From: a virus
Length of the DNA: 26,719 nt
Strand: one strand, 5' to 3'
IMG/VR virus record: IMGVR_UViG_3300008448_000520
Span: 1-26,719 of that record
Under the pieces are notes generated by a model, which was not told the DNA's origin, did not search any database, and was given only the letters and a program-made list of their open reading frames with translations. Positions within the stretch are counted from its first letter, which is position 1. Every line of letters starts with the position of its first letter. Made by a program: the position numbers and the translations under genes. Below are positions 4,920-25,892 of the stretch, in pieces.

Positions 4920-4927
4920 ATATTTAT
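4920..4927 (+). promoter_or_regulatory. ATATTTAT motif (candidate phage late promoter)
   Basis: The motif ends 18 nt before the HNH start at 4946 and lies directly after the terminator at 4858-4879, so the HNH gene seems to have its own transcription start. Confidence 0.45.
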
Positions 4928-6916: not shown

Positions 6917-7819
6917 ATGATAAATATTACAACTCTTCCTCAAACTACAAAAATTTACCTAATTACTAATTGTTACGGAGATCCTAATAAAATTTATATA
7001 GGTAAAACTAATAACAAATTTAGAAAAAATAACCATAAAAAAAGATTTGGTAAAGATTTAATTTTTACTTATATTGATGAAGTTAATTCTTTAGATAGAA
7101 AGTATTGGAAACCCTTAGAATCATTTTGGATAGAATATTTTAGATATTTGGGTTTTGATTTACAAAATAAACAAATGTGCGGTGGAAGTGGGGTAGAATT
7201 TCATACAAAGAATACAAGGGAAAAAATTAAATTAGCTAGAAAAGGGGTTGGGAAGAAAAAAATAATCCAATACGATTTAGAAGGTAATTTTATTAAAAAA
7301 TGGGATGGAGCAATTTGTGTAGAAAATGAATTAGGATTAAAAGCTTCTAACATATTAGCTAATTGTAGAAAACAAACAAAATATGCTTTTAATTTTATTT
7401 GGAGATTTGATTTTGATAAAATTAATAACAATTTTATTCTTTTAAAAGATAGAAAAGGAAAATCAGTTATACAGTACGATTTAAAAGGTAATATTATACA
7501 AGAATGGGATAGTATAACTAAAGCTTCCAAATATACTAGTACTAACCTATCAGATATCTATGCATGTTGTAATAAGCTCCAAGAAACCTCTAATAATTTT
7601 ATTTGGAGATATAAAACCTCTCCATTAGATTTTAATTTTGAATTGAAACCTAAAAAGAAAATTTTACAATTTAATAAAAATGGAGAATTTATTAAAGAAT
7701 GGGATAATATAAAAGAAATAGAAATTAATCTTCATATATACTCCTCAGGAATTGTTATGTGTTGTAAAGGAAATATTAAAACCTCTAAAGGATATATTTG
7801 GAAATATAAAAATAAATAA
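6917..7819 (+). CDS. GIY-YIG homing endonuclease with three NUMOD1-type repeats
   Basis: This 300-residue protein has an N-terminal GIY-YIG nuclease domain: KIYLIT (residues about 12-17) and KIYIGKT (about 25-31), followed by an HKK...W-x-PLE-x-F-W block. A NUMOD3-like segment near residue 95 (TKNTREKIKLARKGVGKKK) leads to three NUMOD1-type DNA-binding repeats starting near residues 116, 180 and 245. Each has the pattern (I/L)-x-Q-(Y/F)-(D/N)-x-x-G-x-(F/I)-I-(K/Q)-(K/E)-W-D and ends in F-I-W-(R/K)-Y or similar. Modular organisation of this kind is known for I-TevI-like enzymes. It is paralogous to the gene at 19666, sharing NCYGD, YIGKT and HKK. It lies just after the polymerase gene, a likely target region. 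Confidence 0.85.
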   Translation: MINITTLPQTTKIYLITNCYGDPNKIYIGKTNNKFRKNNHKKRFGKDLIFTYIDEVNSLDRKYWKPLESFWIEYFRYLGFDLQNKQMCGGSGVEFHTKNTREKIKLARKGVGKKKIIQYDLEGNFIKKWDGAICVENELGLKASNILANCRKQTKYAFNFIWRFDFDKINNNFILLKDRKGKSVIQYDLKGNIIQEWDSITKASKYTSTNLSDIYACCNKLQETSNNFIWRYKTSPLDFNFELKPKKKILQFNKNGEFIKEWDNIKEIEINLHIYSSGIVMCCKGNIKTSKGYIWKYKNK

Positions 7820-9494: not shown

Positions 9495-10331
9495 ATGAAT
9501 TTAGACTTGATTCAAAGCAAGCTGAACGCCCTATCTGCCCCTAAAGGAGGTGGGCAAAAATCTAACGAAAAAGCATTAAGCTTTTGGAAACCAACTGTTG
9601 GAAAAGCCTTAGTAAGGTTTGTTCCTTCAAAGTACAATCCCGAAAACCCGTTTAGAGAATTATATTTCCATTATGGAATCGGAAAACGAACAATTATTTC
9701 ACCTTCAAACTTCGGTGAAAAAGACCCAATTATCGAATTTGCAAAAGAACTTCGCAAAACTAAAGAACCTGAAAACTGGAAATTAGCTAAGAAACTTGAA
9801 CCAAAAATGAGAGTTTTTGCTCCTGTTATCGTTAGAGGTGAAGAAGATAAAGGAGTACGTTTATGGGAATTTGGTAAAGAAATTTATCAATCATTACTAT
9901 TATTAGCTGCTGATGAAGATATCGGAGATTTTACTGATATTATGGAAGGTAGAGATATGAAAGTTGAAACAGTAGGACCTGAAACTACAGGAACTGAATA
10001 CAACAAATCTCGTATCATGCCTGCTTTAAAAGTTTCAACACTAACTGATAATAGTGATGAGTTAAATAAATGGATGGAAAATCAACCAGATCCAGTTTCA
10101 TTCTCAAAACGTTATACTTTTGAAGAAATTAAACAATTTTTAGCTGAATGGTTAAACCCTGAAGAAGAAACTAAAGAAGAAGGAAGTATTGTAGATGGTC
10201 CAGCTACTGATTTTGAACCTACAAATGATCCTAAGTTTGCTTTAAGTTCTAAACCAATCGCTAATAAAGCTTTTCCTCCTAAAAAGGAGATTCCAACTGA
10301 GGATGAATTTAATGATTTATTTAAAGATTAA
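9495..10331 (+). CDS. 32: Single-stranded DNA-binding protein, T4 gp32-like
   Basis: This 278-residue protein coats single-stranded DNA at replication forks and recombination intermediates. Its family features are an N-terminal helix with a basic Gly/Lys stretch (SAPKGGGQKSNEKALSFWKP), an OB-fold core (ALVRFVPSKYNPENPFRELY and VFAPVIVRGEEDKGVRLWEF), and an acidic C-terminal tail (PTEDEFNDLFKD), the usual partner-docking tail of SSBs. T4 gp32 coordinates zinc through His and Cys residues; no cysteine is present here, so the zinc site is lost. It is immediately upstream of uvsX (7 nt), as expected for partners in recombination-dependent replication. Confidence 0.85.
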   Translation: MNLDLIQSKLNALSAPKGGGQKSNEKALSFWKPTVGKALVRFVPSKYNPENPFRELYFHYGIGKRTIISPSNFGEKDPIIEFAKELRKTKEPENWKLAKKLEPKMRVFAPVIVRGEEDKGVRLWEFGKEIYQSLLLLAADEDIGDFTDIMEGRDMKVETVGPETTGTEYNKSRIMPALKVSTLTDNSDELNKWMENQPDPVSFSKRYTFEEIKQFLAEWLNPEEETKEEGSIVDGPATDFEPTNDPKFALSSKPIANKAFPPKKEIPTEDEFNDLFKD

Positions 10332-12440: not shown

Positions 12441-12452
12441 TAAATTTCTCAA

Positions 12453-12460
12453 TATTTATA
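12453..12460 (+). promoter_or_regulatory. ATATTTAT motif (candidate phage late promoter)
   Basis: The motif lies 4 nt before the first hairpin of the kissing-loop RNA at 12464-12543, so that RNA would be the leader of the HNH transcript. Confidence 0.45.
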
Positions 12461-12463
12461 CAT

Positions 12464-12543
12464 GCATTGTCGCGGTGCAAATATAAAATATTAATTTAGA
12501 ACCTATGATGAGTAAGGACCGCGACCCCGAAAATCATAGGTTT
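12464..12543 (+). ncRNA. Two-hairpin kissing-loop / pseudoknot leader RNA before an HNH gene
   Basis: The first hairpin is TGCA (12464-12467) and TGCA (12477-12480) around the 9-nt loop TTGTCGCGG. The second is AACCTATGAT (12501-12510) and ATCATAGGTT (12534-12543), a perfect 10-bp stem followed by TTCTTT, with a 23-nt loop. GTCGCGG (12470-12476) is the exact complement of CCGCGAC (12520-12526) in the second loop; the pairing reaches 8 bp if the closing T12477-A12519 is used. The GC-rich pairing segments stand out in AT-rich DNA. It could be a regulatory leader or terminator/attenuator for the HNH gene at 12554. I recognise no known riboswitch or ribozyme class. Confidence 0.55.
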
Positions 12544-12553
12544 CTTTATCAAA

Positions 12554-13144
12554 ATGAAAAAATGTAGTAAATGTAAAATTGAAAAATCTTTAGATAATTT
12601 TTCATCAAATAAATCTAATAAAGATGGGAAAAATAATTATTGTAAATCCTGTGATAAAGTTAGAGTTAAAAGATATCAAGAAAATAATAAATCCCAAACT
12701 TTATTATATTTAAAAGACTGGAGAGATAATAATCCTGATTATGATAAAAATTATACTAAAAATAATTATGAAAAGTCTAGGAATTATAGAAAAAAATATC
12801 AAAAAGATAGAATAAAAAATAATCCTGATGTTAGATTAACTCATAATATTAGAACATTAATTTTAATTTCATTTAAAAACTGTTTAAAAGGAAGTTATAA
12901 AAAGGGTAAAAAAACTGAAGAAATATTAGGCTGCACTTTAGAAGAATTTATCCAATATTTACAATCACAGTTTATTGAAGGTATGACTTTAGAAAATCAT
13001 GGTGAATGGGAAATTGATCATATAATACCTTTAGCTTCAGCGCAAACTGAAGAAGATATTTATGTATTAAATCATTATACTAACCTCCAACCCTTATGGA
13101 AAGAAGATAATAGAAAGAAAAGTGCTAAAATATTAGGCTTTTAA
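12554..13144 (+). CDS. HNH homing endonuclease (free-standing)
   Basis: This 196-residue protein is a paralogue of those at 4946 and 15324. The N-terminal zinc-ribbon-like motif is CSKC (C4, C7) with CKSC about 23 residues later. A basic, Asn-rich linker precedes the HNH core in the last 45 residues: WEIDHIIPLAS, then N-L-QPLWK and DNRKKSAK. It separates the rnh-like and helicase genes, which are otherwise part of the same replication module, so it is probably an insertion. The structured RNA at 12464-12543 forms its 5' leader. Confidence 0.85.
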   Translation: MKKCSKCKIEKSLDNFSSNKSNKDGKNNYCKSCDKVRVKRYQENNKSQTLLYLKDWRDNNPDYDKNYTKNNYEKSRNYRKKYQKDRIKNNPDVRLTHNIRTLILISFKNCLKGSYKKGKKTEEILGCTLEEFIQYLQSQFIEGMTLENHGEWEIDHIIPLASAQTEEDIYVLNHYTNLQPLWKEDNRKKSAKILGF

Positions 13145-20320: not shown

Positions 20321-20740
20321 ATGAAAACAGGACTAATAATTACACTATCAATGTCAACATTACTAGCCTTTGTAGGCACTTATTTCTTTAACCTTACTGC
20401 TGAGAATATTGAACAATTCCTAGCAGTTGGTGTAATTGTTTTTGCTGATGGATTTTTTGGAGTATGGGCGGGAATGAAAAGGGAAGGATTCCAAACACGT
20501 AAAGCGTTAAAAGTTCTAAGAACCTATGGATTCTGGACAGTGATGCTTGCTTGCATCCTTGCTATTGAAAAAGGATTCACAGGAACTTCTTGGTTAAGTG
20601 AAACAATCATGGCACCGTTTTTAGTATTCCAACTAATCTCAATACTAAAAAATGCCTCAATGGTAGGCATTGTACATAATGAATTACTAACTCAGATACT
20701 AGATAGGCTTGACAAGCACAAGGGTGAGAGGAAAATTTAA
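20321..20740 (+). CDS. Holin-like membrane protein (phage_holin_4-type)
   Basis: This 139-residue protein has an N-terminal membrane segment (LIITLSMSTLLAFVGTYFF), a second at about 33-51 (FLAVGVIVFADGFFGVWAG), then basic KREGFQTRKALKVL, further hydrophobic segments at about 70-85 and 95-112, and a charged C-terminus (LDRLDKHKGERKI). The Asp-Gly-x-x-G in the second segment and the arrangement around the KREGFQTRKA loop recall the phage_holin_4 / toxin-secretion holin family, recognised from memory. The location, separated from the endolysin only by a homing endonuclease gene, fits a role in lysis. It would be a second holin beside the one at 18762. Confidence 0.65.
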   Translation: MKTGLIITLSMSTLLAFVGTYFFNLTAENIEQFLAVGVIVFADGFFGVWAGMKREGFQTRKALKVLRTYGFWTVMLACILAIEKGFTGTSWLSETIMAPFLVFQLISILKNASMVGIVHNELLTQILDRLDKHKGERKI

Positions 20741-20777: not shown

Positions 20778-20785
20778 ATATTTAT
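20778..20785 (+). promoter_or_regulatory. ATATTTAT motif (candidate phage late promoter)
   Basis: The motif lies 10 nt before the first stem of the kissing-loop RNA at 20796, the same arrangement as at 12453. Confidence 0.45.
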
Positions 20786-20795
20786 ATTAAATAAC

Positions 20796-20883
20796 AGGTA
20801 CTAGTCCTACCTAGAAAAAACATTACGGAGATTTTAAAAACCTACTATGGACTAGATAGTTGTTTTTAATTTCTCCTTTTTTT
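20796..20883 (+). ncRNA. Kissing-loop RNA with terminator-like 3' hairpin, before a GIY-YIG gene
   Basis: Hairpin 1 is AGGTA (20796-20800), a 7-nt loop CTAGTCC (20801-20807) and TACCT (20808-20812). Hairpin 2 has apex ACTAT (20844-20848), a 7-nt loop GGACTAG (20849-20855) and ATAGT (20856-20860), on a longer stem from 20827-20841 with 20862-20876 (13 of 15 pairs), ending in a T-run at 20877-20883. The two 7-nt loops are exact complements, an intramolecular kissing-loop arrangement. The T-run makes hairpin 2 look like an intrinsic terminator, so loop-loop contact may set read-through into the GIY-YIG gene at 20891. A small RNA acting in trans is an alternative. Confidence 0.7.
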
Positions 20884-20890
20884 ATTTAAT

Positions 20891-21577
20891 ATGATAGGTA
20901 TTTATAAAATAATAAATCCAAAAGGTAGAATTTATATAGGGCAAAGTGTTAATATAGAAAGAAGAAAGGGGAATTACAGTAAATTACAAGACTGTAAAAA
21001 TCAAATAAAATTGTACCGTTCCCTAAAGAAGTATGGGTTTTCCTCACATATTTTTGAAGTACTCGAAGAGTGCACTATTGACGAGTTAAATAAAAAGGAG
21101 AGATATTGGCAAGATTTCTATAATGTTCTAGAAGAAGGTCTAAATTGTAAATTAACTAAGACAGAAGATAAATCAGGACTTATGTCTAAAGAATTAAGAG
21201 ATAGGTTGAGTAAGAGTCATTTGCAACGTAACAGCACAGAAGAGGGAAAGATTAGTATAAGAAAGCGTGTAGAAAACACAGACTACATTAAAAGAACAGC
21301 TAATACTGATTATAAAAAGAAAGTACTTAATACAGATTATGCTAAAAGAACACTCAACTTTGATTATGAGAAGAAAGTAAACAATACTAACTATAGTGAA
21401 ATAGGTAAAAAGCATATGAAAGCAGTTCAACAATTTACAAAAGAAGGTATATTTATTAGAGAATGGTCTTCCGTAAAAGAAGCAGGAGAAACTCTAAAAA
21501 TACAACGAGGAGACATCTCAGGATGTTGTAGAGGAGTGAATAAATCCTCAGGTGGGTTTATTTGGAAGTATAGATAA
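20891..21577 (+). CDS. GIY-YIG homing endonuclease with internal nonapeptide repeats
   Basis: This 228-residue protein has a GIY-YIG domain at the N-terminus: GIYKI (3-7), RIYIGQS (13-19), an Arg in the N-IERRK block, and a conserved E in ERYWQDFYNVLEEGLN (metal ligand candidate). A NUMOD3-like segment (SKELRDRLSKSHLQRN) follows, then five tandem nine-residue units of the form N-x-(D/N)-Y-x-(K/E)-(K/R/I)-x-x. The C-terminus is one NUMOD1 repeat (VQQFTKEGIFIREWSSVKEA) ending in GGFIWKYR. It differs from the 6917/19666 pair in the nuclease domain. It is inserted between the second holin-like gene and the spanin-like pair, downstream of the kissing-loop RNA. Confidence 0.85.
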   Translation: MIGIYKIINPKGRIYIGQSVNIERRKGNYSKLQDCKNQIKLYRSLKKYGFSSHIFEVLEECTIDELNKKERYWQDFYNVLEEGLNCKLTKTEDKSGLMSKELRDRLSKSHLQRNSTEEGKISIRKRVENTDYIKRTANTDYKKKVLNTDYAKRTLNFDYEKKVNNTNYSEIGKKHMKAVQQFTKEGIFIREWSSVKEAGETLKIQRGDISGCCRGVNKSSGGFIWKYR

Positions 21578-25200: not shown

Positions 25201-25208
25201 ATATTTAT
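25201..25208 (+). promoter_or_regulatory. ATATTTAT motif (candidate phage late promoter)
   Basis: The motif lies 33 nt before the HNH gene at 25242 and directly adjacent to a leader hairpin (25210-25238). Confidence 0.45.
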
Positions 25209-25209
25209 T

Positions 25210-25238
25210 GGGGATAAAACTAATGTAAAATTATCTCC
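25210..25238 (+). promoter_or_regulatory. Leader hairpin just upstream of the HNH start
   Basis: GGGGATAA (25210-25217) pairs with TTATCTCC (25231-25238) over 8 bp with one G-T wobble and a 13-nt loop. It ends 3 nt before the ATG at 25242 and could restrict ribosome access. In T4, hairpins that sequester the ribosome site regulate homing endonucleases such as I-TevI; here this is inference. Confidence 0.45.
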
Positions 25239-25241
25239 ATT

Positions 25242-25892
25242 ATGAATAACCTTAATATAAAAGATACAAGATATTGTAAAAAATGTAATAAAAATTTACC
25301 TAAAACTTTAGAATACTTTCCTCATAGAAAATCAGATAAATCAGGATTTGGATTATATTGTAAAGTATGTATAAATAAAGATAAAAGAGAAAAAAGAAGT
25401 GAATTAAGAAAACTATGGGATAAAGGAGGAGTAATAGAAGGACAAGAAGGAAGAAAATGTACTATATGTAAGAATATATACCCTCCCACTCATGATTATT
25501 TTGGAGTTCATAAAGGAAATTCTTTAAATTTAGATACTTATTGTAAAATTTGTAGAAAAGAAAAAGGTAGAGCTAATTACAATAAAAATAAAGAATCTTG
25601 GAATAAAACTCATAATAAAACAAAACTTGAAAAAATAAATAAAATACAAGAAATTAAAAAACAAAGTAAAGGCTGTTCTAAATGCAATGAAAAACGCCAT
25701 TACTTATTAGATTTTCATCATTTAGACCCTTCCCAAAAATTATTTCAAATAGGGCAGGGGGAATCAAAAGGGTGGGATAAAGTATTAGAAGAAATGAAAA
25801 AATGTATTTTATTATGTAAAAATTGTCATGCTGAATTCCATTACCAAGAAAAAACACAAAATATTAATATACAAGAATATTTAAAATTATGA
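25242..25892 (+). CDS. HNH endonuclease with two extra zinc-ribbon motifs
   Basis: This 216-residue protein belongs to a different HNH subfamily from the three at 4946, 12554 and 15324. Two N-terminal zinc-ribbon-like modules, CKKC...CKVC and CTIC...CKIC, precede a Lys-rich linker. A C-terminal HNH of the CxxC type follows: CSKCNEKRHYLLDFHHLDP and ILLCKNCHAEFHYQ. The HH and final H-x-x-x-H plus the two CxxC pairs are the expected catalytic and zinc-binding residues. It is a likely free-standing homing endonuclease. The leader has an ATATTTAT motif and a hairpin. Its stop overlaps the next start by ATGA, coupling it to the gene at 25889. Confidence 0.83.
   Translation: MNNLNIKDTRYCKKCNKNLPKTLEYFPHRKSDKSGFGLYCKVCINKDKREKRSELRKLWDKGGVIEGQEGRKCTICKNIYPPTHDYFGVHKGNSLNLDTYCKICRKEKGRANYNKNKESWNKTHNKTKLEKINKIQEIKKQSKGCSKCNEKRHYLLDFHHLDPSQKLFQIGQGESKGWDKVLEEMKKCILLCKNCHAEFHYQEKTQNINIQEYLKL

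Follow-up and report, generated by a model that had tools for sequence, protein, structure and literature searches.

A two-hairpin RNA with covarying kissing loops upstream of phage homing endonuclease genes

The window analyzed here is the whole of a 26,719-base virus record whose lysis region is related to that of Flavobacterium phage immuto. Between a holin gene ending at 20740 and a GIY-YIG endonuclease gene lie two hairpins (HP1 and HP2; Table 1), and reading the sequence confirmed what a preliminary description had reported: the positions are right, the 7-nt loops CTAGTCC and GGACTAG are exact reverse complements, and HP2 is part of a longer terminator-like stem followed directly by seven T residues. 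One downstream fold pairs the 3' arm of HP1 with the coding region. The single instance first described belongs to a family that comes in several forms, and this window contains two of them. The element at 20796 belongs to the form called type A here, and a type B copy is present at 12463-12542, upstream of an HNH gene. By our own reading of the neighboring proteins, this HNH gene appears to be inserted, with an exonuclease/RNase H-like gene on one side and a DnaB-type helicase gene on the other; its product gave no Pfam match at E<=0.001.

Table 1. Coordinates of the two elements in the window and of the genes behind them.
Feature	Position	Strand	Basis or remark
Promoter-like motif TATTTAT	20779-20785	+	ends 15 nt upstream of loop 1; putative promoter activity
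HP1: 5-bp stem AGGTA (20796-20800)/TACCT (20808-20812), loop CTAGTCC (20801-20807)	20796-20812	+	sequence, covariation
HP1-HP2 linker, contains conserved ACATTAC	20813-20826	+	alignment
HP2: outer stems and inner hairpin	20827-20876	+	fold, covariation
HP2 outer stem GGAGA/TCTCC	20827-20831 / 20872-20876	+	sequence
HP2 outer stem TTAAAAAC/GTTTTTAA	20834-20841 / 20862-20869	+	sequence
HP2 inner hairpin: ACTAT (20844-20848), loop 2 GGACTAG (20849-20855), ATAGT (20856-20860)	20844-20860	+	sequence
T7 tract, immediately 3' of HP2	20877-20883	+	sequence
GIY-YIG endonuclease gene, 228 aa, I-HmuI/NUMOD-like C-terminus	20891-21577	+	PF01541 above cut-off; PF22083 below cut-off
Promoter-like motif ATATTTAT of the second (type B) element	12452-12459	+	
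Type B HP1, loop GTCGCGG (12469-12475)	12463-12479	+	
Type B HP2, loop CCGCGAC (12519-12525), AGTA/GAAA internal loop, without long T-run	12500-12542	+	
EndoVII-like HNH protein gene, 196 aa, behind the type B element	12554-13144	+	tblastn to phage proteins annotated HNH or endonuclease VII

The preliminary description also held that a chance match of both loops and stems was unlikely. For the bare pattern this was too strong, since a pair of hairpins with complementary 7-nt loops and stems of at least 5 bp occurs in 8% of dinucleotide shuffles of the window and is therefore only mildly unusual in such A+T-rich sequence. The claim holds once energies are considered: when hairpins and duplex were scored together, the top two pairs in the window (-31.7 at 20801 and -31.0 at 12469) lay far beyond the best pair among 25 shuffles (-17.7), and the covariation described below is decisive. 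A coincidence, in which an ordinary terminator or hairpin pair happens to have matching loops, can appeal to the 8% of shuffled windows that hold some such pair, but it is refuted by conserved complementarity, by covariation over many loop pairs and by energy-scored shuffles that come nowhere near, and we give it next to no credence.

Exact-pattern matches included the same cassette at L002 and L004 and the same loops on other stems at L010 and L025. Loci retrieved through their GIY-YIG or HNH proteins, with the loops ignored, carried the pairs CTGGTAC/GTACCAG, CTGCGAC/GTCGCAG and CTGGAAC/GTTCCAG. A search with the conserved linker ACATTACGGAGATTTTA provided 22 distinct type A copies, which contain nine loop pairs, all complementary. 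In the alignment of these 22 sequences the kissing helix is 100% paired, with five of its seven pairs varying on both sides and two invariant. The covariation score of this helix was reached by none of 500 shuffles, and slid registers fail (type A, n=22; type B, n=52). Complementary loops and compensatory changes, by which a kissing-loop RNA is recognized, are thus both present, and the proposal of such an RNA upstream of the GIY-YIG gene is strongly supported by its relatives: complementarity is kept at homologous loci, where its loss had been named as the test of the claim. The stems are rich in G-U pairs, which points to RNA rather than DNA hairpins.

Several ideas and search patterns were rejected. 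The idea that kissing loops evolve faster than stems proved inconsistent, with loop diversity higher than stem diversity in type A (0.316 vs 0.243) and lower in type B (0.349 vs 0.472). The exact HP2 pattern was a poor finder when used alone, most of its 19 matches lying in unrelated sequence, and among the eight loci matching a gapped loop pattern, L026-L029 lacked such a leader. The mini-ORF ATG GAC TAG, which lies within HP2 of the leader, showed no conservation.

In type B, the second and abundant form, HP1 is short and the linker to HP2 varies; between the inner 3-bp stem of HP2 and its outer stem lies AGUA/GAAA, an internal loop that resembles in sequence the bulged-G (loop E) motif. Among the IMG/VR matches listed, an exact complement of loop 2 lies 46-59 nt upstream in 90 of 91 distinct type B sites. 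At least 21 different loop-pair sequences occur among these 91 sites, and mismatched combinations of loop and upstream region match in just 12 of 7466 cases. The type B kissing helix is 98.4% paired over 52 sequences, and again five of seven pairs vary on both sides. A search that started from the promoter-like motif and HP1, and was blind to HP2, gave 42 distinct sites; the exact complement was present at 32 of them, as compared to 0 of 1634 mismatched combinations. Seven of the other ten apparently have a different leader with AAGGAG before the gene, and the remaining three are a G-U variant (L427), a site without HP2 (L412) and an inverted site (L234). This last locus (~7085-7166) is also the sole exception among the 91 type B sites. 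The apical part of its HP2 is inverted and both loops read identically, as would result from a naturally broken lock or from an error in assembly.

Both forms are placed regularly with respect to an upstream motif. In type A, TATTTAT ends 14-16 nt upstream of loop 1 in 22 of 22 copies. In type B it occurs in 24 of 90 copies, with its end 9 nt from loop 1 in 23, and TAnnTTTG, which we take to match the known Bacteroidetes -7 element, occurs in 51 of 90, of which 44 have it 9-10 nt from loop 1. Overall, a promoter-like motif stands upstream of HP1 in 22 of 22 type A and 75 of 90 type B copies. Judging from the usual spacing between a -7/-10 element and the start site, HP1 probably lies at the extreme 5' end of the RNA. 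Elsewhere in the window, ATATTTAT is found on the + strand before many genes (e.g. at 4920, 6882, 9040, 14559, 15301, 18679, 19639 and 25201). Its 19 matches compare with 12 expected, a count as high being seen in 1 of 100 shuffles, and it may serve as a phage promoter, similar on the opposite strand to T4 late TATAAATA. At 25201-25242, before an HNH gene at 25242, GGGGATAA...TTATCTCC could fold into a hairpin that almost reaches the ATG; no kissing partner was seen.

Placement is also regular on the downstream side. A T-run of at least five residues follows HP2 in 27 of 27 type A and 87 of 100 type B copies (114 of 127 together), and an ORF starts close behind HP2 in 126 of 127, within 18 nt in 120 of the 127. 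The distance from HP2 to the ORF is 13-14 nt in type A; in type B it is 1-18 nt in 94 copies and 40-46 nt in six. At the 20796 element, HP2 and its T7 tract have the form of an intrinsic terminator (a stable stem plus a U-tract), and a consensus terminator scan listed nothing at HP2 with a pattern that disallows its interrupted stem. No T-run of four or more is present in nine of 100 type B copies, the window copy at 12463 included, so termination cannot account for all of the function. HP2 is stable by itself (-19.0 kcal/mol), which was counted against a clear added role for the kiss.

These features also bear on a stabilizing, translation-enabling leader, in which locked 5' hairpins would block 5'-end-dependent decay, keep the U/A-rich start region open and raise expression. 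Stem-loops at the 5' terminus stabilize mRNA, HP1 is apparently at the very 5' end, a U/A-rich stretch and the start codon lie directly behind the structure, and the nine type B copies without a T-run would suit such a role. The T-runs found in 114 copies are, however, terminator-like, and simple 5' protection would not need a kiss. We consider this reading unlikely.

The genes behind the leader mostly encode homing endonucleases of the GIY-YIG, NUMOD4-HNH, EndoVII-like HNH and GHH-type HNH kinds; in some phages they are non-endonucleases such as DUF6291 proteins, or replication-type genes. A near-identical leader precedes unrelated nucleases at L109 (HNH) and L049 (GIY-YIG), indicating that the element is not tied to one protein family. 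The type A cassette stands before a GIY-YIG gene in L004 and before an MKKC ORF in L002; the two L002 copies, too, are nearly alike and precede unrelated nucleases. On the minus strand at L199, a type A leader is followed only by a short ORF (MQKEGWKIKKGFVYYNKVK) and an ssDNA-binding-like gene, a locus that looks as if an endonuclease had been deleted behind the leader.

That locus fits another role that had been suggested, an independent small RNA of ~90 nt with its own promoter and a U-tract end, acting in trans or as a dimer, to which the endonuclease gene would be a mere neighbor. The promoter-like motif, the compact fold, the terminator-like end and the L199 copy without an intact endonuclease all agree with this, and the loops could also pair between molecules, giving the RNA dimers that were likewise suggested. 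It is made less likely by the ORF that closely follows nearly every copy with enough sequence, always at the same 13-14 nt in type A, and the nine type B copies lacking a T-run also count against it. We hold such an RNA to be quite unlikely.

Among cultivated phages, FCV-1 has two elements, one of them type B by the covariance model (E = 1e-9), phi10:1 has one at 10259, upstream of gp024-gp025 and the primase/helicase gp026, and elemoA has one upstream of its HNH gene. In the cultivated Flavobacterium phages of the elemo group (L323, L324 and L363), an HNH gene is preceded by yet another form, whose complementary loops CCGCCAAG/CTTGGCGG are 8 nt long. L382 (G777) and L394 (G783) show further forms: 6-nt loops GTGCAG/CTGCAC, and GCGGCAA in the contig of L010. 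Candidates before replication genes in morran (-22.5) and elemoA (-19.5) are tentative, as shuffles were sometimes as good, and the energy scan found no pair above shuffles in the Arctus and Nekkels phages. The many energy-scan matches in G+C-rich contigs were treated as background. In ~790 Bacteroidota genomes (397 + 395, from the seed's family and phylum), searched under stricter filters that lose weak matches, the type B covariance model matched only the seed genome, a MAG. The type B pattern had 31 matches in GTDB genomes, with the loop complement at L336 only, and when phage records were searched by DNA similarity, the element itself returned chance matches only. A NUMOD4-HNH query, a composite of two proteins, was used solely for finding phage records. 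Flavobacterium phage morran9-1 (L360, 12838-12872) carries a DUF805b RNA (RF02914, 52.1 bits).

In Rfam 15, no family, the purine family included, was found at the gathering threshold for the window elements, 13 type B loci and three cultivated phages. No description of this RNA was found in a search of mostly open-access literature, so one may exist; apparently it is a phage RNA that is widespread and so far undescribed. In the purine riboswitch, two 7-nt loops kiss intramolecularly above a three-way junction with a ligand pocket, using few Watson-Crick loop-loop pairs. The present RNA likewise has two 7-nt loops that kiss inside one molecule, but finds no Rfam match. ColE1 RNA I and RNA II have fully complementary 7-nt loops that pair between two RNAs in the antisense control of replication; the full-length 7-nt complementarity is shared, whereas here the partners lie in one RNA. 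As in an intrinsic terminator or leader attenuator, a stable hairpin and U-tract precede a gene, yet the apical loop here is engaged in a kiss with a hairpin farther upstream, and the U-tract is missing in some copies.

The T4-type hairpins upstream of I-TevI, SegB, Aeh1 MobE and seg43 of phage 25 are thought to limit or time expression; they hide the RBS on read-through transcripts, and a late promoter is positioned to yield late RNAs with an incomplete hairpin (PMC2988022). Those leaders and the present one are alike as structured RNAs immediately 5' of phage genes for homing endonucleases of both the GIY-YIG and the HNH kind (PMC2988022). They appear to differ in promoter placement, the promoter-like motif lying ahead of both hairpins here, and they differ in that a second hairpin takes part in a covarying kiss and no SD is hidden: the gap between HP2 and the ATG at the 20796 element, TTTTTTTATTTAAT, has no SD, and GGAGA is part of the HP2 5' arm, ~60 nt upstream of the ATG.

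The put RNA of HK022 is likewise a phage RNA of ~70 nt with two hairpins, putL lying just downstream of its promoter (PMC9378689). By analogy, the element might bind RNA polymerase as it transcribes close to the promoter, enabling it to pass terminators, and its length, two hairpins and promoter-adjacent position resemble putL, with several copies in one genome also in keeping. Put, however, acts on RNA polymerase and distant terminators, the paper shows no kissing loops (PMC9378689), and many copies of our element precede single endonuclease genes rather than long operons. A put-like action is very unlikely.

Control of read-through into the endonuclease gene, also among the roles first suggested, is the best fit to these sequence features. 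At a probability of roughly 0.5, we favor a cis-acting 5' leader of Bacteroidota phages in which a kissing-locked, terminator-like HP2 would restrict or time expression of the gene behind it, the cassette being associated mainly with homing endonuclease genes. In such a leader, transcription would start at HP1 or a few nucleotides away and HP1 would fold first; once HP2 is made, the loops would kiss over 7 bp and lock it. HP2 would then act as a gate before the gene, with RNA polymerase tending to halt at the U-tract that most copies have. On read-through mRNA, HP2 would also lie within the ribosome footprint, because the start codon is usually just 1-18 nt past the stem. The gene would be restrained by termination at the U-tract, by ribosome blocking or by both, and the outcome would be low or timed expression of the endonuclease and, in some phages, perhaps of replication genes.

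Some genomes carry several copies. Eight copies, four each of type A and type B, lie in the 102-kb record G776 and four in the 50-kb record G792, with loop pairs always different. When the distinctness of loops among same-type copies within a genome was assessed, an early Monte Carlo gave P ~0.09 and the product of per-genome probabilities ~0.12; at P ~0.1 with the loop frequencies at hand, the difference is suggestive and not significant. Tentatively, and with some doubt, the element may be a general expression leader of Bacteroidota phages that heads replication operons and has been captured repeatedly by unrelated homing endonucleases, each copy having a private loop pair; as many as eight per genome would then act as orthogonal RNA locks without cross-pairing.

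The element is a well-supported structured RNA that is common among viral contigs and missing from Rfam 15; cultivated Flavobacterium phages have one of its forms. Covariation of the kissing helix over dozens of loop pairs means that simple loop swaps can probe the kiss. If loops are indeed kept different between copies, they would provide a natural set of orthogonal RNA-RNA pairs. The proposed leader would show how phages restrain selfish endonucleases, in a phylum whose phages are poorly understood with respect to post-transcriptional control.
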